DNA of 26,421 nt. It comes from Schoenoplectus triqueter (Eukaryota; Streptophyta; Magnoliopsida; Poales; Cyperaceae). The DNA lies in contig CAXKVV010001092.1 in assembly GCA_964058805.1 (NCBI GenBank), forward strand, positions 1-26,421, read 5' to 3'. This document shows, in pieces, positions 1,714-19,178 of the stretch; position 1 is the first letter of the stretch; the number at the start of each line of letters is the position of its first letter. The notes beneath the pieces were generated by a model that did no database searches, had not been told where the DNA came from, and worked only from the letters and a program-made list of their open reading frames with translations. The translations under genes were made by a program, and so were the position numbers.

Positions 1714-1747
1714 GAGGATCGAATCGTTCTATAGTAGATTCATCCTC
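1714..1747 (+). repeat. CTGTAGTA-loop hairpin, LTR A 5' cluster (one unit)
   Basis: Left arm GAGGAT-C-GAAT (1714-1724), loop ending in CTATAGTAG, right arm ATTCATCCTC (1738-1747). The arms pair over 10 bp with one bulged C after the sixth base. The matching hairpin in LTR B (10539-10572) has the same stem but a bulged T. LTR B adds a second unit here and LTR C has three. Confidence 0.65.
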
Positions 1748-1750
1748 AAC

Positions 1751-1835
1751 GTCAAGCTGGCTTAGTGCTTCAGGTTTGACCTTGTGTGCAGTTGTGTTCC
1801 TAGGTTTATGGGTCCGCTTAGTGCCTAGAATCCAT
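1751..1835 (+). repeat. TTAGTGCTT-loop hairpins of LTR A
   Basis: Two stem-loops share a second loop type. 1751-1780 pairs GTCAAGC with GTTTGAC around GGCTTAGTGCTTCAG. 1808-1835 pairs ATGGGT with AATCCAT-type sequence around CCGCTTAGTGCC. A weaker relative sits at about 1907-1930 (CAAC..CGGCTTAGTGCTTCGA..GTTG). The second hairpin has counterparts in LTRs B and C where its fourth pair changes from G-C to G-T to A-T. Confidence 0.55.
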
Positions 1836-1959
1836 GATCTAGAAGAGAAGAGAGAAGTACCATGTGGGCCATATCCGCCCTTCTCCTGATTCACCAACCT
1901 CAAGATCAACCGGCTTAGTGCTTCGAGTTGTATTTTGTGTGATTGGTCGTTGACTAGTT

Positions 1960-2123
1960 AAGATTGAACCGTTCTGTAGTAGGTTTATCTTCTAGATCAA
2001 CTGAGGTCGAGTCGTTCTGTAGTAGACTAACCTCGAACCCCTCCGTAGAGATTAATCTGATCTGTAGTAAGGTTATCTCTCGGGGCGGTAAAGACTGAAC
2101 CGATCTGTAGTAGGTTCGTCTTT
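1960..2123 (+). repeat. CTGTAGTA-loop hairpin array, LTR A 3' cluster (four units)
   Basis: Four consecutive hairpins: 1960-1991 (AAGAT-T-GAACC with GGTTTATCTT), 2003-2034 (GAGGT-CG-AGTC with GACTAACCTC), 2047-2080 (AGAGAT-T-AATC with GGTTATCTCT) and 2090-2123 (AAAGAC-T-GAACC with GGTTCGTCTTT). The loop is (G)(A/T)TCTGTAGTA in nearly all of them. Stem sequences differ between units yet remain complementary, and an unpaired base sits at about the same height. The fourth hairpin has an 11-bp stem whose C-G pair (AAAGAC/GTCTTT) is T-A in the LTR B counterpart (AAAGAT/ATCTTT), which is a compensatory change. Confidence 0.7.
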
Positions 2124-2592: not shown

Positions 2593-3931
2593 ATGCCAAG
2601 AATGCTGCTGGACTACGCAGCACGACGAGTCACTAATGCAAGGGGCCCGATCAGACTTCCCCATCTAACCGAAGAACCCTCCAGTTATGGTGTGAGCACC
2701 ATCAGTATCCTACAAAACAACTGCTACCACGGGTTGGAACACGAAGACCCACACGATCACATCCAAACTTTTCTTCAATGTCTAAGAGCGGTCCGGCCGA
2801 ACGGAGCTTCCAAAGACTATATCAAGTTAGCTCTTTTCTTATTTACCGTGAAAGACAGAGCCAAGAAATGACTTAACTCACTTTTCAGAGACTCAGTTGG
2901 TACCTATGCCAACCTCTCTAATCTAATTTTGAGTAAATTCTTTCCTCATAAAAGGACCGCTAAGATTAGGGCGTAAATCTTGACATTTAGGCAAGCTGCC
3001 GATGAGTCTATGAGTGAGGTATGGGAAAGGTATAGAGAATTGTTGAACTTGTGTCCCCACCACAACATCCTAGACTGGATAATTGTGGAAGACTTTTACG
3101 AAAGCCTAACAAATAGTAATCGCATGCTAGTCAACTCTGCGGTGGGTGGCAACTTCATGCAAATGGAGTCCGACGAAGCACTGAGGCTCTTTGACCGGCT
3201 AGCCACACGGGAGCAATGAATGGATCATGACCGCTGAAAAGGAGGTGACAGTGGCGGAAGAATTGAACTTGATCAATTCTCGACACTCTCAGCCAGGATT
3301 GACGCCCTATAGAAGCAACTCCAGCAGAGCCGGCAAATGAAGGTAGTTGAACAGTTTCAACCGGTGTCTTACGACCTCTGCGGAGATGAAGGACATAGTT
3401 ATCAGGAGTGTCCGCTGAAACAGCCTGATGAAGGGGCGTAACAGGTTAACTCTGTCAACAACGAACCTCCATTTATGACAAGTCTACCATACAAACTCTA
3501 TCCGAAGGATTCACCTGAGTTCCAGAAATGAGTTTAGGGACGAAAAAGGTTCATAGAATTACGGCAACTATAACTAGAACTCATATCAAAATAACCAAAG
3601 GATCCGACAGTTCTTACAAGCTTTTGAAAATAGTAACTGTAACTTCTACCAAAATACTTATTTCCCGAACCAGGGCAATAAGCCTCAGTTTAACCAACAG
3701 AGACCCCCATATGTTGTCCCAGCCTTGACTGAGTTCATGAAAGACCAAGAGAAAATGAATCAAGTTATGTTGGAACATATGTAAGCCATCAACGCTAAGC
3801 TTGCCAAGCTGAATGCAAGAGAGGTTGGGAATGAAAACCCCAACAATGCATCTACTTCCATAGACCGAGACAAACTTCCCAGCAAACTTGAGACCAACTC
3901 AAATGCCTTAAGGGTTCCACCAAAGAACTGA
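2593..3931 (+). pseudogene. gag: Decayed Ty3/gypsy gag (Retrotrans_gag plus zinc knuckle), no pol follows
   Basis: The frame shows the core of the plant Athila/Tat gag. In order: a MLLDYAA-type start, HEDPHDHIQTFLQ, IKLALFLFTVKDRAK, NSL, LSKFFPHKRTAKIR, TFRQAADESMSEVWERYREL, LCPHHNILDW, FYESL and NSAVGGN. One zinc knuckle lies at 3370-3411 (LCGDEGHSYQEC). Its first cysteine position is Tyr (TAC), so the CCHC set is broken. In-frame stops at 2869-2871 (TGA), 2974-2976 (TAA), 3217-3219 (TGA) and later interrupt the frame. Two of these replace a conserved Trp (TGG to TGA). A one-base shift between about 3420 and 3527 moves the C-terminal Asn/Gln-rich part into another frame, where it ends at TGA 3929-3931 after RVPPKN. 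No protease, RT, RNase H or integrase follows. In life Gag forms the capsid of the retrotransposon particle. Here it is a relic of a gag-only derivative. Confidence 0.9.
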
Positions 3932-3940
3932 AGTAAGAAG

Positions 3941-4135
3941 GATTGAGCTTGAGAACTAAAATAAAGCGCTTCTTGGGAGGCAACCCAAGTAATTTCTTAG
4001 TTTTTCTGACGTCTTGGAGAGCAATGAAGTCCGACAGATCTCCGGTTTAGTTTTAAGATTTTTAAAGTTAGCACAGTAGGGTCGAGCTTGAGACCTAAAA
4101 TAAAATATTTCTTAGGAGGCAACCTAAGTGACTCT
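3941..4135 (+). repeat. Duplicated GAGCTTGAGA...GGAGGCAACC hairpin module
   Basis: Two modules 139 bases apart start with GAGCTTGAGAMCTAAAATAAA (3945 and 4084) and end in a stem-loop. The first is CTTGGG-AGGCAA-CCCAAG (3972-3989). The second is CTTAGG-AGGCAA-CCTAAG (4111-4128). The loop is identical, and the fourth pair changed from G-C to A-T on both sides, so pairing is kept. From memory, a TTGGGAGGCAACCCAA motif is common downstream of the polyprotein in Athila/Tat-type elements, which fits the place directly after the gag stop. Its role is unknown; packaging or 3'-end functions are possible. Confidence 0.65.
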
Positions 4136-4158
4136 TTTTTGAAGACATAAATAATACT

Positions 4159-5706
4159 GTCATCTGAAAGCGGGAGCCCGTCTCCAATCGAAAAAGATGC
4201 GAATAGCACCATCCAAGACCCTCGAGATCAACTCCCAAAGACTCAGGGAGAAAAAGGAAGGTAGGCACATTCTGATCTAAGGCAAACTGATGCGCACACA
4301 TGTGCGGAGAATAAGGCTCTCTGAAAGCATAATCACCGATGCGGAGTGGTAAGAATCTGTCACGAAGGCTGATGAAATAATCCAAGACATCCGGCTGACC
4401 TTTGAGAGGGGTAGAATACCTAGAAGAGGGCGTCGCATCAATCAAGAATCTGTAAGTGGCCCTAGCTAAGTGATGAGCAGCTAATATGGCGCGATCTAGT
4501 CTCAGATGATCATGGCTATGATAAAACCTGAAGCGAGCGTCCTCCGGAGTCAGAGAGGTAGGATCTGTACCGGCTAAGTCACCCAGGATAGGCAAGCTGG
4601 CCCTCAAATCTGATGATAAAGATGATGATATACACTAGACCAATACATGTGTCGCCACCCGCTAATGAAGTGCCAAGGCACCAGCTCCCTACAACGAGAA
4701 GGATCGCGTGAAGAAGTCAAACCCCGCAAGCTCCTGTAAACATTGGCTAAGACTGGCACGGCCAAGGAGGCTCTCTCACCGCGAGCAATCCGACTTGCCA
4801 TCACAAACACTGAAGGGCGGATGGTGCGAGCTCCCGAGCTAGGGAGTAGAAAGAAGCAGATCCACTAAGAGAGAAAAGTTGTCAAATAAGCCTCTCGACC
4901 AATATCATGTGAGCATAAGGTGTCCTGCGGAAGAGCGGGCGCATCGCAATAAAGATCAGGGCGCCCAGTGTTGAGAGGGTCGCGGGTGGAAGCATAGCAC
5001 TCAGGATGAGAACGCAAACGATCAGTGAAATAAGAAATCTGAAATCTGAAAGGGACGGAAGAATGATGTCCCCTCAACTGATCATAAATCCTGTAAACCC
5101 CTCGAAGAGAAGCCGGGTGTAGGGAAGAGTCCCTCAAGTCATCATCTGATAACAAAAACTCATCATAGTAATGACCAAATACAAGCAAGCTAGTCAACTG
5201 ACGGATCTCCCATAGTGTAGGGGTCAACTCCCGATCATCAATGAAGAGGGTGTTGGTGGAATAGTTTCACCGCTCACAGAAGGCACGAAGCCAAGGTGTG
5301 TCAATGTGATACCGAAATATCAACAAGAAAATATAGCTATATACACCCGAACTGCAAAGAATCTCTCTCTCCCGCATAAGGATGTAGCGGGTCCAATCCA
5401 ACTGATGGCCATGATATCTGAGTGGAAGGCTGAAGTCAGTACCGGTCCAACAAGAGGCCTCTTCATCAATTATCTCCTTGCCAAGGAGATGAGTGAGTGG
5501 TGCCGCGGCTGAAAGATCCCGAGGCAGTAAGGGCGTAATATTGTGAGGCTGCTCATCGTGAAAAATCAAACAACCAGCCCGAAGATATACGAAAGTACCA
5601 CGTGTAACCCTAACCGTGGGCGTCCAGTCTTCAGGATCCTCGTAGAGAGAGAGATAGTGACTCCGACGACGCCTAGGAATCGTGCCATATGGAGAGATGG
5701 CCGAAT
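4159..5706 (-). pseudogene. Antisense PMD (plant mobile domain) gene, copy 1, exon 2 relic
   Basis: On the minus strand from 5706 down runs a plant mobile domain (PF10536-type): SHYLSLYEDPEDWTP, LDWTRYIL, a YHIDTPWLRAFCER block, NYSTNTLFIDDRELTPTLWEI, YRIYDQLRG, VPWHF, and late PMD signature YSPHMCAHQFALDQNVP. The exon starts after a pyrimidine-rich tract ending TTCTAG, a good 3' splice site (intron from 5707 up) that the second copy shares. Defects: TGA at 5267-5269 replacing Trp, TAG at 4865-4867, and a one-base deletion near 4628. Similarity to copy 2 stops near 4159, so the last part of the domain and all 3' exons are lost. PMD proteins of the MAIN/MAIL group act in plant nuclei, and PMDs also occur as extra, often antisense, frames in Ty3/gypsy elements. 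The location between gag and LTR B fits the second case. Confidence 0.8.
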
Positions 5707-6340
5707 CTAGAATAAAGATGGTAAACTCAACAACAAAAAGGGGAGAGAAAAGAAAGAAAGAAGGAAAAGGCGTGGCGAATATGCGCACCAAATCAGGCCC
5801 TTTAATTTTCTAAAATCTTCATGACCCGCTTTGGTGGGTGGCTCTTTGTTTACCCTTAAAAATTTCAAGGATGAAGCAACTAGACAATTAAGGATAAATA
5901 TCAATTATCAGCAATAAATCATAAGAAAGAGGAGAGAAAGGCAAGAATAGAGGGTCCACCAGTCAGGAGAAGTCGATGCTGAACCCCGAAAATAGTTTAT
6001 TTGTCCCACAAGGAAATCCTGGACAAAGGGCCGAAAGTATAAAAGCACTGCCACCTCCTATTCATTCGAGTTGGGTGACCCTCAGGAGATTCAGGGGAGA
6101 AAAATCTCCTGATAGGTCATCCATTTAAATATTGTTCACTGACAGGTGGGTCCCACACCTTAATAATAGACATCAAGGAAGTCAAGATCAAACCCTAGAT
6201 ATTAATCTTCAAAGCAAACCCTATGAGCTGAACCAATACAATCCCTATACAACAAGGAACAGTGTCAATGCCAAGCCAGTATTTTGATACAACCAATCAC
6301 AATAAATCTCAATGTGATTTTGCTTTCAAGGCCGACCAGG

Positions 6341-9707: not shown

Positions 9708-10024
9708 TAAGGAATCGTTGTAACGATTCTCTGAGTCATTATACGGTTCACCAAAATATTGAACGCTTCACGAGACATTAGCAATGCTTTGACTATTCTC
9801 TGACAAGTCAACATATTTTAAAGAATCGTTATATGGTTCATCAAATCGTTATAACACTTCATGAAACGTTGGCAACGATTTGACTATTCTCTGACAAGTC
9901 AATATGCTATAAGGAATCGTTATAATGATTCATTGAATCGTTATACGGTTCATCATATCGTTATAATGTTTTATAAAACGCTGGTAACATTTTAATCCTT
10001 ATTGACCAGCTCCTTGACAAATCT
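9708..10024. repeat. AATCGTT palindrome tandem block of LTR B (three units)
   Basis: Units start at about 9711, 9822 and 9915. The first carries the perfect interrupted palindrome GAATCGTT-GT-AACGATTC (9712-9729). Later units have decayed versions such as GAATCGTTATAATGATTC (about 9915). Each unit contains a CTCTGACAAGTCAA-like tail. LTR A has two units. Confidence 0.6.
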
Positions 10025-10538
10025 TCTATTCTCCAGAAATGTTATAATGACATGTTGAAGCGTATAACGATTGATAAAATGGTGGCACAATTTATTGATT
10101 GCTGATAAGTCACCACAATATGGCAGATTCTGAATTGGCTTGTTTAGAAGTTTGCCCCTTTGATAAACCTGTTTCAAAATTAGACCAGCCATGAGCCCCG
10201 AGTCTAATTTTATGCACAAGATAACCCTGAACCTGTGAATCAGTTAAATACTCAGAACCCATGATCTAGAGGTGATTAAACATGCTCACACAAGATGATG
10301 TGAAGTAGCACAGTAATTTTTGCATAAGTAATGCAATATTCAGAATAGCTAGTCGAGATAAGAACATCTCGACGTCCGTCGAAGAATGACCAATACTATG
10401 ACATTAGCACAAACGAAAGAACATCACGATGTCCAAGGAGATGATATCATGATGACTCTGTGTCATGAACAAGTAATTCATGACCAGTCAAGCTAGTAAG
10501 ATCAAACTAATTTGTCGATAAGTTTATCTTCTAGTCCA

Positions 10539-10613
10539 GAGGATTGAATTGTTCTGTAGTAGATTCATCCTCAAACAGTGGAATGAACTGTTATGTAGTA
10601 GGTTCTTTCACTG
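10539..10613 (+). repeat. CTGTAGTA-loop hairpins, LTR B 5' cluster (two units)
   Basis: 10539-10572 pairs GAGGAT-T-GAAT with ATTCATCCTC (10 bp, one bulged T). 10576-10613 pairs CAGTG..AA..GAACT with GGTTC..TTT..CACTG around TGTTATGTAGTA. The second unit is missing from LTR A. Confidence 0.65.
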
Positions 10614-10627
10614 ACACACGCCTCAAT

Positions 10628-10712
10628 GTCAAGCTGGCTCAGCGCTTTAGGTTTGACTTTGTGTGTAGTTGTGTTCCTATGTTTATGGATCCGTTTAGTG
10701 CTTGAAATTCAT
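10628..10712 (+). repeat. TTAGTGCTT-loop hairpins of LTR B
   Basis: 10628-10657 pairs GTCAAGC with GTTTGAC. 10685-10712 pairs ATGGAT with ATTCAT around CCGTTTAGTGCTTGAA. The fourth pair of the second hairpin is G-T here, between the G-C of LTR A and the A-T of LTR C. Confidence 0.55.
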
Positions 10713-10836
10713 GATCTAGAAGATCAGTGAAAAGTACCATGTGGGTGATATCCGCCCTTCTCCTGATTCACCAACCTCAAGATCAACCGGCTTAGTGCTT
10801 CGAGTTGTATTTTATGTGATTGGTTGTTGATTAGTT

Positions 10837-11000
10837 AAGATTGAACCGTTGTGTAGTAGATTTATCTTCTAAATCAACTGAGGTCGAGTCGTTCTGTAGT
10901 AGACTTACCTCCCATCCCTTCGCTGAGATCAATCTGATCTGTAGTAAGTTTATCTCTCGGAGCGGTAAAGATTGAACTGATCTGTAGTAGGTTCATCTTT
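10837..11000 (+). repeat. CTGTAGTA-loop hairpin array, LTR B 3' cluster (four units)
   Basis: Units: 10837-10868 (AAGAT-T-GAACC with GATTTATCTT), 10880-10911 (GAGGT-C-GAGTC with GACTTACCTC, one G-T pair), 10925-10956 (GAGAT-C-AA with TTATCTC) and 10967-11000 (AAAGAT-T-GAAC with GTTCATCTTT). Loop TCTGTAGTA is kept in three of four; the first has TGTGTAGTA. Confidence 0.7.
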
Positions 11001-11141
11001 TCACCCCATATCCCACTGGATCAACCTTTTGGTAGATCCAAAATACTCCAGTGATTTTTTATCATAGGAGCACGCGACCACTTGACTATTATTTAGCTTT
11101 ACTATTTGCTTCCCCCTTTCAAGATCTAGAGGTTCATTGAG

Positions 11142-11164
11142 GTTAATAACCCAGGGTAATTAAC
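11142..11164 (+). repeat. GTTAATAACCC-A-GGGTAATTAAC palindrome near the LTR end
   Basis: The 11-base arms flank a single A and pair at 10 of 11 positions. LTR C has GTTAATGACCC-A-GGGTAATTAAC, and LTR A a weaker form with a CCCGGG centre (about 2263-2285). It precedes the GGGGGCTT block in all three copies. Confidence 0.55.
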
Positions 11165-12000
11165 GATGGGGGCTTACGCCTATCGAAATCTACAAGTACT
11201 CACAATCACTAAAAATCCCTTAAGTGTGCATCCCAATGAGTCTAAGACGGCGGGACCAACCGATGTTAAACAAATATACGTTCAGGAGGGATCTCTGTGT
11301 CATTCTTTCGCATCCCATCGCCCAAAACCAAGCGGCGGTACGAAGCGCGCAAAAAAGGGTCGCACATCATTATAATGATTTTCTAAAATATTGAACGATA
11401 TACAGAGCGTTAGCAACATTTTCACCTCTTTTGACCAATTCTCTGACAAGTCTGATGTCTTCTTGAAGCGTTATAACGATTTGTGGAAACGTTATAACGA
11501 TTTGTTAAAATATTGTAACGGTTTGTTGAATCGTTACACGATTCCTAGAATGATGAATAATCAACAAGGTGATGATACACCTTATTGACTGCTGATGAGA
11601 TATCACAATATGGTAGTTTTTGAGCTCATTCTCTGATAAACCTGTCTCAATATTAGACCAGTCAGAAGCCCCGAGTTTAATTTTATGCACAAGTTAACCC
11701 TGAATCTGTCAATCGGCTAGGTGCTCAGGATTCATGATTTAGTGGTGATTAATTATGCTCACACAAAGGGGTGTGGAGTAACGTAGTGATTTTTGCACAA
11801 GTAATGTAACATTCAGAATAGCCAATCAAGACCAAGACTATGACATCAGCATGAGCAAACGTGTTGATTTCAAGAGAGAAGAATGTCACAATGTCCAAAG
11901 AGGTGACATCATGATGACTCTGTGTCATGAACAAGTAATTCATGACCAGTCACGCTAGTAAGACTAAACTAATTCATTGATATATTTGTCTTCTAGTTTA

Positions 12001-12118
12001 AGGAATTGAACTGATCTGTAGTAAATTCATCTCACGAAATTGTAGGATTGAAGCGATCTATAGTAGATTCATCTTCAAAATAGTGAATCTGAACTGATCT
12101 GTAGTAGGTTCTTTCACT
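12001..12118 (+). repeat. CTGTAGTA-loop hairpins, LTR C 5' cluster (three units)
   Basis: 12001-12033 is a degenerate unit with loop GATCTGTAGTA. 12044-12075 pairs AGGAT-T-GAA with TTCATCTT around GCGATCTATAGTAGA. 12082-12118 pairs AGTGAA-TCT-GAAC with GTTC-T-TTCACT around TGATCTGTAGTAG. The count in this cluster rises from one (LTR A) to two (B) to three (C). Confidence 0.6.
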
Positions 12119-12133
12119 GACACACGCCTCAAT

Positions 12134-12219
12134 GTCAAACTGACTCAATGCTTCAGGTTTGACTTTGTGTGCAGTTGTGTTCCTAGGTCTATGAATCCGC
12201 TCAGTGCTTGGAATTCATA
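12134..12219 (+). repeat. TTAGTGCTT-loop hairpins of LTR C
   Basis: 12134-12163 pairs GTCAAAC with GTTTGAC over 7 bp, where LTRs A and B have a G-T pair. 12190-12219 pairs TATGAAT with ATTCATA around CCGCTCAGTGCTTGGA. Both stems are better paired than in LTRs A and B. Confidence 0.55.
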
Positions 12220-12342
12220 ATCTAGAAGATCGGTGAGAAGAAACAAGTGGGCCAAATCCACCTGTCTCCTGATTCACCAACCTCAAGATCAACCGGCTAA
12301 GTGCTTCGAGTTGTATTTTGTGTGATTGGTCGTTGACTAGTA

Positions 12343-12507
12343 AAGATTGAACCGATCTGTAGTAGGTTCATCTTCTAGGTCAACTAAGGTCGAGTCAATC
12401 TGTAGTAGACTCACCTTTCATCCCTCCGCAAAGGTTGATCTGATCTGTTAGTAAGATTGCCTCTCGAAGCGGTAAAGATTGAACTGATCTGTAGTAAATT
12501 CATCTTT
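12343..12507 (+). repeat. CTGTAGTA-loop hairpin array, LTR C 3' cluster (four units)
   Basis: Units: 12343-12374 (AAGAT-T-GAACC with GGTTCATCTT, perfect), 12386-12417 (AAGGT-C-GAGTC with GACTCACCTT, perfect 10 bp), 12432-12462 (AGGT-T-GATCT with AGATTGCCT, two G-T pairs) and 12474-12507 (AAAGAT-T-GAA with TTCATCTTT). In the second unit the outer pair is A-T where LTRs A and B have G-C. Confidence 0.7.
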
Positions 12508-12875
12508 TTCACCACCCTATCTCACTGGACTGACCTGTCAGTAAGTCCAGGGTGCTTCAGTGATCCCGATCACCGAAGCACGTGATAACTTGACCATCAT
12601 TTCACTATAGTATTTGCTTTCCCATTTTAAAGATCCAGTGGTGCCTCGAGGTTAATGACCCAGGGTAATTAACGGTGGGGGCTTGTGCCCATCGGAATCT
12701 ACAAGTACTCACAATCACTAAAAAAACCCTAAATGTGCATTTTAATGAGTCTAAATGATGGAATTAACTGGTGTTAAACAAATGCACGTTCAGGAGGGAT
12801 CTCCGTGTCCTTCTTTCGCATCTCATCGCCCAAACATGAAGCGACGGTGCGGAGCGCGTGAAAAATGATCGCACA

Positions 12876-13212
12876 ATAGGATTTGTAGTTTGTCCCTCAA
12901 ACTATCTGTCGCCCAATGATGAAAGTTGCTCATATTGGTCGCCCGCGGTCCAAATCAAGGGATAGGTCGAGCAAATTAGTGGCTAGTAAGTAGTCGCTTT
13001 CGAGGGCATATAAATAAATAACTCACGTACTATTAGTAGCAAGTAGCACTAATAACAAAATCTATCCTCCTCAGACAAAATAAAAGGGATAACTAAGTAA
13101 AATAATAGAAGTCTATTTTCCTTATCCCTGAATTAAAGTAAAACAATAGAAGTCTATCTTTTCAATAAGGGGTTATCACCTTTGTCCCCGACACCACGAG
13201 TGTTATACAAAG
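12876..13212. other. Noncoding sequence after LTR C
   Basis: No gag is present here, unlike the right flank of LTR A. A plus-strand GGCATATAAATAAATA at 13006-13021 resembles a TATA box. AATAGAAGTCTAT is repeated at about 13106 and 13147. No coding frame is supportable. Confidence 0.4.
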
Positions 13213-13620
13213 TCAGGTTGAGTGCATTCATCCGTAAAAGCACCACATGCCCAAGGAAGTGGCATGTTACAATCCCGCACAGATCATGGAGGGGTCAGAT
13301 TAAGGGTTTACGTTTTAACCCGATATTTTGTGTCAAACAAAGTGACTTGCTTAAAGAAGTGACTCTAGTCATGGAGAGCGAATCTACCCGATTAAAGCCT
13401 GTCTCGCGGGAATGCGTGATGGATGTTTGAGGGTAGTCAAAAATAAAAACCAAGTTGGGTGCATTCATCCGTAAAAGCACCACACGCCCAAGGAGGTGGT
13501 CTGTTATAATCCCGCGCAGATCATGAAGGGGTCAGATTAAGGGTTTACGCTTTCAACCCGACATTCTGTATCAAACAAAGTGACTCACTTAAATAAGTGA
13601 CTCTAGTCATGGAGAGCGAA
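13213..13620 (+). repeat. 238-bp tandem repeat with internal stem-loops (about 1.7 units)
   Basis: TGCATTCATCCGTAAAAGCA is at 13223 and 13461, and CTCTAGTCATGGAGAGCGAA is at 13363 and 13601; both give a 238-base period. Stem-loops in the unit are GTGC..GCAC around ATTCATCCGTAAAA, ACATGCC-CAAGGAAGT-GGCATGT at 13245-13267, and GGGTT..AACCC around TACGTTTT near 13304-13321. A related CCGTAAAA hairpin stands alone at 13842-13860. Reading frames across the block have no domain and are not credible genes. Confidence 0.65.
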
Positions 13621-14812: not shown

Positions 14813-14882
14813 CTGTAGTAAAATAAGCATGTCAGATAATCTATCACAATCAAAGAAGAGATAAAGAAAGAGAAGATCTGAT

Positions 14883-15932: not shown

Positions 15933-16001
15933 CTGATCAAATGAAAATCTATCAAAATCTAGCCTAAGCCTAAGAAAGGAAGGGATGAATCTGAAATGTA
16001 C

Positions 16002-17589
16002 TAGTGAGGCAAGTCCTGGTAGACGAGCAAGGACAGTGGCTGTCCAACCACTGGAAGTCCACCGGCTCTGAAGAAAAAGGTGGAAAAGGGATGAAATCAT
16101 CATAGGTAGGACCAGATGATGAGCTGCCTCTACCCCTAGGACAAGTGCTATGTGCCATCACGGAAGGAGTGTATGACTGGTACGAGCGAATGATATCATG
16201 ATACCACCAAATATAACGCCTCAAGAAAGTGGGTGCATGAGAAGTAGGCACCATCTGAAAGTGGGAGCCTATCTCTAAGCAAAAGAGATAGGAGTAGCAC
16301 CACCCAATACCCTCAAGATCAACTATGAAAACATAATCACCGATGCGGAGTGGAAAGAATCCATGACGAAGGCTGATGAAATAATCCAAGACATCTGGCT
16401 GACCTCTAAGAGGGGCAGAGTCCCTAGAAGAAGGCGCTGCATCAATCAAAGATCTGTAAGCACCCCCAGCCAAGTGATAAGTGGCCAATCTAGCGTGAGC
16501 TAGCCTCAGATGGTCATGACTGCGGTAAAATCTAAAATGAGCATCCTCAAGAGTCAGGGAGGCAGGCTTAGTACCGGCTAAATCACTTAGGATAGATAAG
16601 CTGACCCTCAAGTCTGATGATAAAGATGGGTGATACACGTCAGACCAGTGCATGTGTAGCCACTCGCTGACGAAGTGCCAAGGCACCAGCTCCCTACAAC
16701 GAGAAGGGTCACGTGAGGAAGTCAAACCCCGTAAGCTCCTGTAAATGTTGGCCAAGACTGGCACGGCCAACGAGACTCTCTCGCCGTGAAAAATCCAACT
16801 TACCACCACAAACACTGAAGAGCGAATGGTGCGAGCCCCCGAGCTGGGAAGCAAAAAGAAGCATATCCACCGAGAGAGAAAGGCTATCAATTAAGTCTCC
16901 CGACTGATGTCATGTGAGCACAAAGTGTCATGCGGAGGGGCGGGCACATCACAGTAAAGATTAGGGCGCCTAGTGCCGAAAGGGTCGCGGGTGGAAGCAC
17001 AACACTCGAGATGAGAGCGCAGTCGATTGGTGAAATAAAAAATCTAGAATCTGAAAGGGACAGAAAGGTTTTGCCCCCTCAACTGATCGTAAATTATATA
17101 AATCTCTCGAAGAGGAGCCGGTGCAGGGAAGAGTCTCTCATAATAATGACCAAACACAGACAGGCCGGTCAACTGATGGATCTCCCACAATGTAGGGGTT
17201 AACTCCCGATGATCAATGAAGAGTGTGTTGGTGGAGTAATTCCATCGCTCGCAGAAAGTACAGAGCCAAGGTGTGTCGATGTGATACCGAAACATCGACA
17301 CGAAGAAATAGCTGTACACACCTAAGCTGCAAAGAATATCCCTCTCTGTCAATCATCTCCTTGCCAAGGAGATGGGTGAGAGGTGCCACGGTTGAAAGAT
17401 CTTGAGGCAGCAAAGGCGTGATGTCATGAGGCTGCTCACTACGAAAAATCAGACCACTAGCCAAAAGGTACACGAGAGTGCCGCGTATAACCCTAACTAT
17501 GGGCGTCTAGTCCTCAGGATTTTCGTAGAGAGAGAGATAATGACTCCGAGAACGCTTAGGAATCGTGCCATTTGAAGAGACGGTCGAGT
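16002..17589 (-). pseudogene. PMD gene copy 2, main PMD exon
   Basis: Minus strand from acceptor TTGTTCTAG/ACTCG (17589) to donor CTCACTA/GTACAT (16002). The order matches copy 1: SHYLSLYENPED, PLTHLLGKEMID, a FRYHIDTPWLCTFCERWN block, STNTLFIDHRELTPTLWEI, VPWHFVSEW, then a C-terminal YIWWYHDIIRSYQSYTPS block that copy 1 lacks. Defects differ from copy 1: TAG at 17507-17509, loss of about 90 bases with a frame change near 17347, TAG at 17044-17046, TAA at 16891-16893, and an in-frame loss of about 29 codons near 16328 that removes the YSPH..QFALDQ block. The Trp that is a stop in copy 1 is intact here. From 16890 to the donor the frame is open. Upstream similarity ends near 17630, inside intron 1, so the promoter and exon 1 are absent. 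Confidence 0.75.
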
Positions 17590-17628
17590 CTAGAACAAAG
17601 ACGACAAATTCAATAGTAAAAAAAAGAG

Positions 17629-17723
17629 ATGAAAATTCACATATATAATTTTTAATATTTAAAACTTATTATTTTTTATAAAATAAAATAATATATATAT
17701 ATTAATGTATGAAAATTCACATA
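17629..17723. repeat. 15-bp direct repeats 80 bp apart at the break of PMD copy 2
   Basis: ATGAAAATTCACATA occurs at 17629-17643 and 17709-17723, with an AT-rich 65-base spacer. Similarity to copy 1 ends at the first one. It could mark a small tandem duplication or repair at the truncation point. Confidence 0.5.
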
Positions 17724-17816: not shown

Positions 17817-18056
17817 GGACCGCACGGTCCGACTCGTTTTGGACCGGACCGTGACCGTGGACCGGACCGGACCGTGGTCGGATCGTGGACCGGACCGTGT
17901 CTTACCACGGTCCGGTCCAACGGTGGGTCGGTCCTCCATTCGCCCGAAAATGGACCGTGCCGACCCGTCCCATGCCGACCCGTGGATCGGACCGTGGACT
18001 GTGCGGGACCGTGGACCGGACCGTCCCGGACCGGACCGGACCGCCTCCCAGACCGG
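17817..18056. repeat. Left subterminal GGACCG array of the hAT element
   Basis: By eye there are about 16 GGACCG and 4 CGGTCC hexamers in 240 bases, mixed with GTGGACC and GGACCGTCCC variants. Subterminal short repeats are typical transposase-binding sites in hAT elements. The block is very GC-rich compared with the rest of the window. Frames on both strands here are low-complexity and not genes. Confidence 0.8.
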
Positions 18057-19030: not shown

Positions 19031-19178
19031 TCGGACCGGACCGTGGACCGTCCCGTCCCGTCCCGAGGGGGCCCGGCCCCCGGGGGCCAACGGTGGGACG
19101 TGTTCAGTTTTTTTGAATTTGAACCGCCTTGAACCGGACCGTGTGGACCGTGCGGGACCGTGGACCGGACCGGACCGT
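19031..19178. repeat. Right subterminal GGACCG array of the hAT element
   Basis: By eye there are about 9 GGACCG hexamers, all in the same orientation as most of the left array. It includes CCGTCCCGTCCCGTCCC and the GC hairpin GGGGGCC-C-GGCCCCC near 19066. The word CCAACGGTGGG is shared with the left array (about 17918 and 19088), so the two blocks are related in direct rather than inverted orientation. Confidence 0.75.

Follow-up and report, generated by a model that had tools for sequence, protein, structure and literature searches.

Organization of the locus

The window, by which we mean the whole stretch of 26,421 nucleotides analysed here (contig C1069 of the 2086 contigs, 82.09 Mb in all, that make up the genome searched), contains three related LTRs on the + strand, with 3′ ends at 2494, 11366 and about 12876. 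The recognised parts span 972–2494 in LTR A, 9708–11366 in LTR B and 11367–12876 in LTR C, whose 3′ end falls at about 12875–12876 and whose 5′ part is missing or cut by LTR B. LTRs A and B align with 78–85% identity in three main stretches and enclose a region with a broken gag, and LTR C is the start of a second element. At 11366–11367, the end of LTR B abuts LTR C sequence that misses its 5′ part; perhaps one element was inserted in, or recombined with, the other. The 5′ parts of the LTRs (972–1250, 9708–9980 and 11366–11545) are rich in GAATCGTTATAACGATTC-type palindromes and hold 14 of the 15 near-matches to ATCGTTATAACGAT. Short tandem arrays with GGACCG-type units occur at 17840–17899 and 19133–19178, and a 113-base direct repeat (88%; 13209–13321 and 13446–13558, 237 bases apart) lies downstream of LTR C.

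A retrotransposon gag domain (PF03732, E = 1.3e-10) with two internal stops lies at 2833–3108 on the + strand; it marks the + strand as the sense strand and identifies the element as Ty3/gypsy. On the − strand, the second element has weak matches to pieces of the plant mobile domain at 15973–17352 (28.3 and 30.4 bits, against a cut-off of 34.9). The antisense stretch at 4098–5809 is similar to 16323–17631 and includes, within 4098–4634, a plant mobile domain match below the cut-off (E = 0.012); stretches similar to the second element's antisense region lie at 4319–5748 of the first element. Judged by this weak antisense match, the window element is probably Ogre-like; the probable assignment of the family to plants draws on the plant mobile domain matches together with this likeness to Ogre. 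Ten of 60 distinct LTR ends have, at +5, a PBS-like 19-mer that is absent after the LTRs of the window; in copy L018, ggatc and then the 19-mer come after the LTR end (..CACA). The 19-mer occurs 133 times in the genome and its reversed sequence 0 times. ARAGORN detected no tRNA genes, and an Rfam search of the window returned 0 matches at the gathering threshold.

Type I and type II hairpins in the LTRs

The first-pass annotation had counted 18 hairpin units, here termed type I, in the three LTRs (five in A, six in B and seven in C), a count that a loop search and a reading of the sequence bore out. The motif CTGTAGTA has 14 sites on the + strand of the window and none on the − strand, compared with a mean of 0.66 and a maximum of 5 in shuffled sequence; 13 exact sites lie inside the arrays and one outside, at 14813. 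Allowing at most one loop mismatch, we obtained 17 in-register hairpins (A 5, B 6, C 6) and one non-folding stray at 12605; the 18th unit, in LTR C, has the 12-nt loop GATCTGTTAGTA and was identified by eye. A type I unit consists of a 6-bp outer helix, one unpaired 5′ base, a 5-bp inner helix and an 11-nt loop of the pattern G(A/T)TCTGTAGTA.

All units lie on the + strand. In LTR A, unit 1 (1714–1747, loop GTTCTATAGTA) forms 11 of 11 pairs, as do units 5 (2047–2080) and 6 (2090–2123), and units 3 (1959–1992) and 4 (2002–2035) form 10 each. The units of LTR B are found at 10539–10572 and 10578–10611 (units 1 and 2, both 11 of 11) and at 10836–10869, 10879–10912, 10924–10957 and 10967–11000 (units 3–6, with 9, 10, 9 and 11 of 11). 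LTR C has units 0, 1 and 2 at 12001–12034, 12043–12076 and 12084–12117 (8, 9 and 6 of 11), units 3, 4 and 6 at 12342–12375, 12385–12418 and 12474–12507 (10 of 11 each), and unit 5, the one read by eye, at 12430–12464. Contrary to the initial description, in which each arm is matched by its own partner, not every stem is perfect, with 6 of 11 standard pairs in unit C2 and 8 of 11 in C0. The two-sided changes reported between homologous units are present in the sequence: AAAGAC/GTCTTT of A is AAAGAT/ATCTTT in B, and GAGGT/ACCTC of A and B is AAGGT/ACCTT in C. Two other parts of the initial description had to be given up: 1714–2123 is not one unbroken type I array, type I units being absent between 1747 and 1959, and the loop is not constant, since unit 1 of A has CTATAGTA, units 2 and 3 of B have ATGTAGTA and GTGTAGTA, and a related family described below has CTGTNNGTA. 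The segment of LTR A at 1690–2130 folds better than 100 of 100 shuffles on each strand (z = −4.30 on the + strand and −3.91 on the − strand).

Between the type I units lies a second hairpin family, type II, in which the loop reads GCTTAGTGCTT and the 3′ side has unpaired bases; like the concerted loop change described below, this family goes beyond the first-pass annotation. Each LTR has three type II hairpins on the + strand: at 1751–1780, 1808–1835 and 1905–1933 in A (loop GCTTAGTGCTT or GCTTAGTGCCT), at 10628–10657, 10685–10712 and 10782–10810 in B, and at 12134–12163, 12191–12218 and 12288–12316 in C. The minimum-energy structure of the second of these in LTR B (10685–10712) is not that fold. 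The type II loop resembles the Pol III A box, and some 3′ arms resemble the B box; this candidate was dropped because the arms vary between units.

Copies of the array and a related family with 12-nt loops

In the whole genome, TTCTGTAGTAG was counted 394 times on one strand and 381 times on the other, and the reversed pattern 44 and 45 times. Copies were collected by similarity to the window, with 40 candidates scored per search, or through an exact pattern that includes CTGTAGTA, for which the first 100 of 775 places gave 34 clusters; for the array of LTR A, 40 of 661 first-look candidates were scored and yielded 83 matches. Since copies were gathered by this pattern or by likeness to the window, 11-nt loops are over-represented among them. 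Of the 85 blocks obtained, 83 were 500–570 nt long, and 81 arrays were aligned, with L019 and L112 omitted. In a number of copies, a 161-bp block of four type I units is further duplicated in tandem; such blocks were seen in L026, L038, L060, L065 and L073, and in the repeated block the outer helix of the first unit is often broken. L049/L050 resemble L119/L120 to beyond the fetched stretch, which may reflect segmental duplication. In viral contigs, no match to the loop-plus-inner-stem pattern was found.

A related family was recognised in six contigs (C19, C33, C51, C56, C68 and C167), each with a PBS-like motif 6213 bases before an RVT_1 match, among the matches listed, that lies within an open frame of 3052–3121 codons. 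LTR sequences of 1.75 kb, mostly upstream of the PBS-like motif, were taken from C33, C19, C51 and C357 (L123–L126), the last contig having no RVT_1 among the matches listed. All four LTRs carry the array, with eight type I units found in each. A search that accepted CTGT-n-RTA or near-CTGTAGTA loops and required at least four inner pairs located these 32 units; in every one, the loop is a 12-nt CTGTNNGTA and the inner helix makes all five pairs. The units follow the same order as in the window; their inner stems equal those of the window classes or differ from them by pairing-preserving changes, and in the register tested, their outer helices form 2–6 of 6 pairs.

A search of the genome with one unit pattern of this family gave 176 and 167 matches on the two strands and 0 for the reversed pattern; a few of those listed are CTGTTAGTA loops of the window's own family. 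Matches on the same strand lie about 17–22 kb apart, which suggests that they are LTR pairs. The pair in C33 shows 99.88% identity across 1696 bases and 99.87% across another 1561, and stays alike up to where the fetched sequence ends; the PBS-like motif follows one copy only. Judged from this pair, the related family was recently active, unless C33 represents an assembly or segmental duplication.

Pairing is maintained between divergent units

The own arms of the 17 in-register window units form 167 of 187 standard pairs, whereas 10,000 random swaps of the 3′ arms gave a mean of 141.6 and at best 158. We then compared unit classes, assigned by similarity, of which classes 0–6 comprise 619 of the 655 collected units. 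Without filtering, five unit classes form 54 of 55 pairs, a total that only the true one among 120 arm pairings reaches, and seven classes form 70 of 77, reached among 5040 by the true pairing alone. When classes 1 and 2 are represented by in-register subfamilies, the seven classes form 75 of 77 pairs, a figure biased by the choice of these subfamilies for at least 10 pairs. On average, two class representatives differ at 9.4 of their 22 stem sites and at 0.6 of 11 loop sites. A bulge base is found in all 619 units of classes 0–6 (T in 509, C in 99 and A in 11), of which 552 have a complete inner helix; classes 7, 8, 9 and 3d (36 units) have poor outer helices in the register used.

Pairing of this kind could be the remnant of a single duplicated palindrome whose units drift neutrally, an explanation that the first-pass annotation had itself raised against selection on structure; the loop and register common to the units, and the continuing duplication of blocks, would fit it. 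We therefore simulated drift from one palindrome under the substitution spectrum of this genome, with 4–7 changes per class. The simulated arrays retained on average 57.6–63.4 pairs at 7 to 4 changes per class and reached 75 in 0 of 4000 runs, so the pairing was not reproduced at the observed divergence, with the caveat that two of the seven classes are pairing-filtered. At 7 changes per class, stem differences amounted to 8.3, against 9.4 observed, and the divergence of the classes requires more than 7 changes per class in this model. The unfiltered totals were reached only below that divergence: at 3, 4 and 5 changes, 68, 8 and 0 of 1000 runs attained 70 pairs in seven classes, and 2, 0 and 0 runs attained 54 in five. 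Neutral drift, already disfavoured on these grounds, is thus a highly improbable account. Amplification through DNA hairpins, also suggested in the first-pass annotation, has become less likely, given that the 161-bp four-unit blocks duplicate in register and that the one-base bulge, which templated correction ought to erase, is kept. The units might instead be DNA sites, that is, palindromic protein-binding repeats of an LTR enhancer comparable to the tobacco Tnt1 boxes. Tandem repeats in the U3 of LTRs can bind transcription factors, according to PMC3316501 and PMC3601003, both strands of the array fold well, and the strand test below is weak. Protein-bound palindromes, however, keep their arms and leave the spacer free, whereas here the arms vary yet pair and the middle is common, and the bulge of one base, conserved here, would be without function in duplex DNA; we regard this explanation as quite unlikely. 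What stands of the earlier suggestion of selection on structure is selection on pairing between unit classes, which the arm swaps and drift runs support, and not its fixed loop.

Covariation between homologous copies is real but modest, as most differences represent decay after insertion. Across the 81 arrays, RNAalifold predicted 100 pairs, 12 of which show two-sided changes. The events per site in type I stems (2.69), loops (3.32) and linkers (3.05) indicate that the sampled insertions are without strong constraint and that selection would act in the active lineages. In type I stems, GU-making changes numbered 80 against 67 AC-making ones (expected GU fraction 0.467, p = 0.07; 105:75 before the mutational baseline), and in type II hairpins 61 against 41 (p = 0.03, on pairs chosen by RNAalifold). 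The GU-making excess is a weak lean towards the sense strand and no proof.

Loops change in concert within arrays

The type I loop is common within an array and changes in concert between lineages; the stems are unit-specific. We quantified this on a tree of the 81 arrays built from loop-masked columns, using as the null 1000 runs in which events were dropped at random. On internal branches, the same loop change appeared in at least three units on 3 occasions against a null of 0.06 (0 of 1000 runs), and the same stem change on 0 occasions against 0.01. Over all branches, shared loop changes numbered 5 against 0.95 in at least three units (P = 0.003) and 17 against 12.5 in at least two (P = 0.085); the corresponding values for stems were 1 against 0.24 (P = 0.22) and 13 against 7.9 (P = 0.038). 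One internal case is a change from CTG to CAG in units 2–6, present in five units of L011 and L014, three of L034 and one of three more copies; parsimony places it on a branch of 35 copies with inferred reversals in most, and it is strong in L011, L014 and L034 only. Another is a change of the last loop A to T in units 1–4 of six copies (L104, L105, L106, L109, L110 and L113), and the third, in a clade of 19 copies, turns T at loop position 2 into A in units 1, 2 and 4. For two of these three cases (CAG and position 2), the reconstruction has to assume that part of the clade reverted.

A tree-free test of clustering within copies, which ignores relatedness and is inflated by clade size, gave 23 pairs against 1.2 for A5, 36 against 3.9 for T11 and 311 against 246 for A2 (each 0 of 5000), and weak clustering of A at loop position 4 (12 against 5.8; 70 of 5000). 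The same test revealed no within-copy clustering of the transitions G1A, G6A, G9A and C4T, and type II loops showed no concerted change in six tests. Loops of 12 nt in units 4 and 5 co-occur: 11 copies have both, 18 have unit 5 only, one has unit 4 only and 51 have neither. Across the 81 arrays, loop position 4 is also a hotspot of C to A change, with 27 events in six loop columns (4.5 per site); elsewhere, C to A events amount to 0.59 per C site outside units and to one event in six non-loop CTG sites.

Concert across units suggests either one reader of the loops or recombination limited to the loops. In the latter case, short-tract recombination between units, for example by template switching during reverse transcription, would homogenise the loops; pairing would be selected, no reader would be needed, and tracts entering a stem would break pairing and vanish, leaving apparent concert in the loops only. 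This is a serious rival to the one-reader view. The loops are the longest stretch common to the units, the tandem blocks show that arrays recombine, and region-specific homogenisation of noncoding regulatory sequences by recombination is described in pararetroviruses in PMC5491270. It requires, however, tracts of about 11 nt with two switches and the conversion of two to five units on one branch, and the stems are without concert on internal branches; we therefore consider it the less favoured of the two and somewhat unlikely overall. The concert could also be mutational, if a modified or hard-to-copy base in every loop led reverse transcriptase to misread several units per round. The concerted changes are indeed transversions (T→A, A→T and, more weakly, C→A), and per-site rates are higher in loops than outside units, at 4.5 versus 0.59 for C→A, 1.29 versus 0.29 for A→T and 0.89 versus 0.28 for T→A, with concerted cases counted repeatedly. 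Such misreading leaves unexplained why every unit of the related family has a 12-nt loop and why pairing is kept, and is very unlikely.

A candidate RNA array read at its loops

Free stems, a common loop and a kept bulge give the units the look of hairpins read at the loop. Our preferred reading, a tentative one to which we give somewhat less than an even chance, is that the LTRs carry an array of RNA hairpins on the sense strand and that a single trans-acting factor, perhaps Gag, binds their loops for packaging. It builds on direct observations: pairing despite divergence, the kept bulge, concerted loop change and the presence of the array in an LTR pair that is 99.9% alike. From these we infer that the array acts as RNA rather than DNA and that its loops have a trans-acting reader.

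Under the preferred reading, the LTRs of a Ty3/gypsy, probably Ogre-like, family would carry this array as a cis-acting element. Every type I unit would have a stem in two parts, with a single bulged base on the 5′ side, that offers the same loop: CUGU, one or two free bases and GUA. Any stem sequence would do provided that pairing holds, with the loop and bulge as the parts read. A single factor would bind all loops, and when its preference shifted in a lineage, the loops of the array would follow. The likeliest factor would be Gag, encoded either by the element itself or by an autonomous helper, and the likeliest task the marking of genomic RNA for packaging, in which gag-only relatives could ride along; this specific pairing of Gag with packaging is possible, although we would not expect it on balance. 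A gag without a listed RVT_1 precedes the array in C60 (gag at 80644, array at 88130) and in the window (gag at 2833, array at 10554), and array, gag and RVT_1 lie on one strand in C97, C410 and C2001, among the matches listed; the occurrence of both kinds of contig fits the use of a helper.

A still more specific and rather doubtful extension is that the array serves as an address label for the element's RNA, with many copies of one loop read by its own Gag. Lineages would then rewrite most or all units at once, as with the 11-nt CTGTAGTA, CAG, GTT and 12-nt CTGTNNGTA forms. If so, address labels would separate the packaging pools of sister families, and gag-only relatives would follow the family whose label they bear.

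Two other ideas about the loop were set aside. The Pumilio site is UGUANAUA, and the UGUAGUAG of the loop does not match it. A homotypic kissing dimer is unlikely, as CTGTAGTA is not self-complementary and matches 14 times on the + strand of the window against 0 on the − strand.

Comparison with known systems

No hairpin array of this kind was described in the open-licence literature searched, a scope that gives no proof of absence. Little is known of the RNA packaging marks of plant LTR elements or of how non-autonomous relatives find their helpers, and according to PMC3735527, knowledge of packaged RNA is fairly limited outside BARE. An array with jointly rewritten loops is a readable candidate for such a label, one whose natural variants occur within a single genome. 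Should recombination turn out to be responsible, the array would be a clear example of homogenisation that is confined to tracts and leaves the paired arms untouched.

The window element and its related family resemble Ogre (Tat, Ty3/gypsy) in the sense gag, an antisense stretch with a weak plant mobile domain match, a long LTR (at least 3.2 kb in C33, unless this reflects a larger duplication) and the spacing of array pairs at about 17–22 kb; a plant mobile domain occurs in 57% of Ogre elements according to PMC6317226. They differ in the hairpin array, which is not described for Ogre LTRs in the open-licence literature searched. Tnt1, with its BII boxes, and other elements likewise have short tandem repeats in the LTR, but these are described as factor-bound DNA sites, whereas the arms in the window differ between units and covary. 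The iron-responsive element has a six-base CAGUGN loop, a 5-bp upper helix and a bulged C. This element and the phage coat-protein hairpins combine a fixed loop, a one-base 5′ bulge, a short upper helix and a sequence-tolerant stem, as here; the type I loop (11–12 nt) differs from theirs in length and sequence, and the 5-bp helix and one-base bulge are like those of the iron-responsive element.

Packaging and dimerisation hairpins at the 5′ end of Ty1 and retroviral RNAs provide a functional parallel, in that loops matter and stems are changeable if paired (for Ty1, PMC5454406). Ty1 has two hairpins with complementary loops, whereas the present arrays have at least six to eight units with one common, non-self-complementary loop. 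Finally, autonomous pararetroviruses and their non-autonomous partners have common regulatory sequence that changes together, as reported in PMC5491270; there, recombination between partners homogenises whole intergenic regions, whereas here the loops of 11–12 nt change and the stems between them do not.
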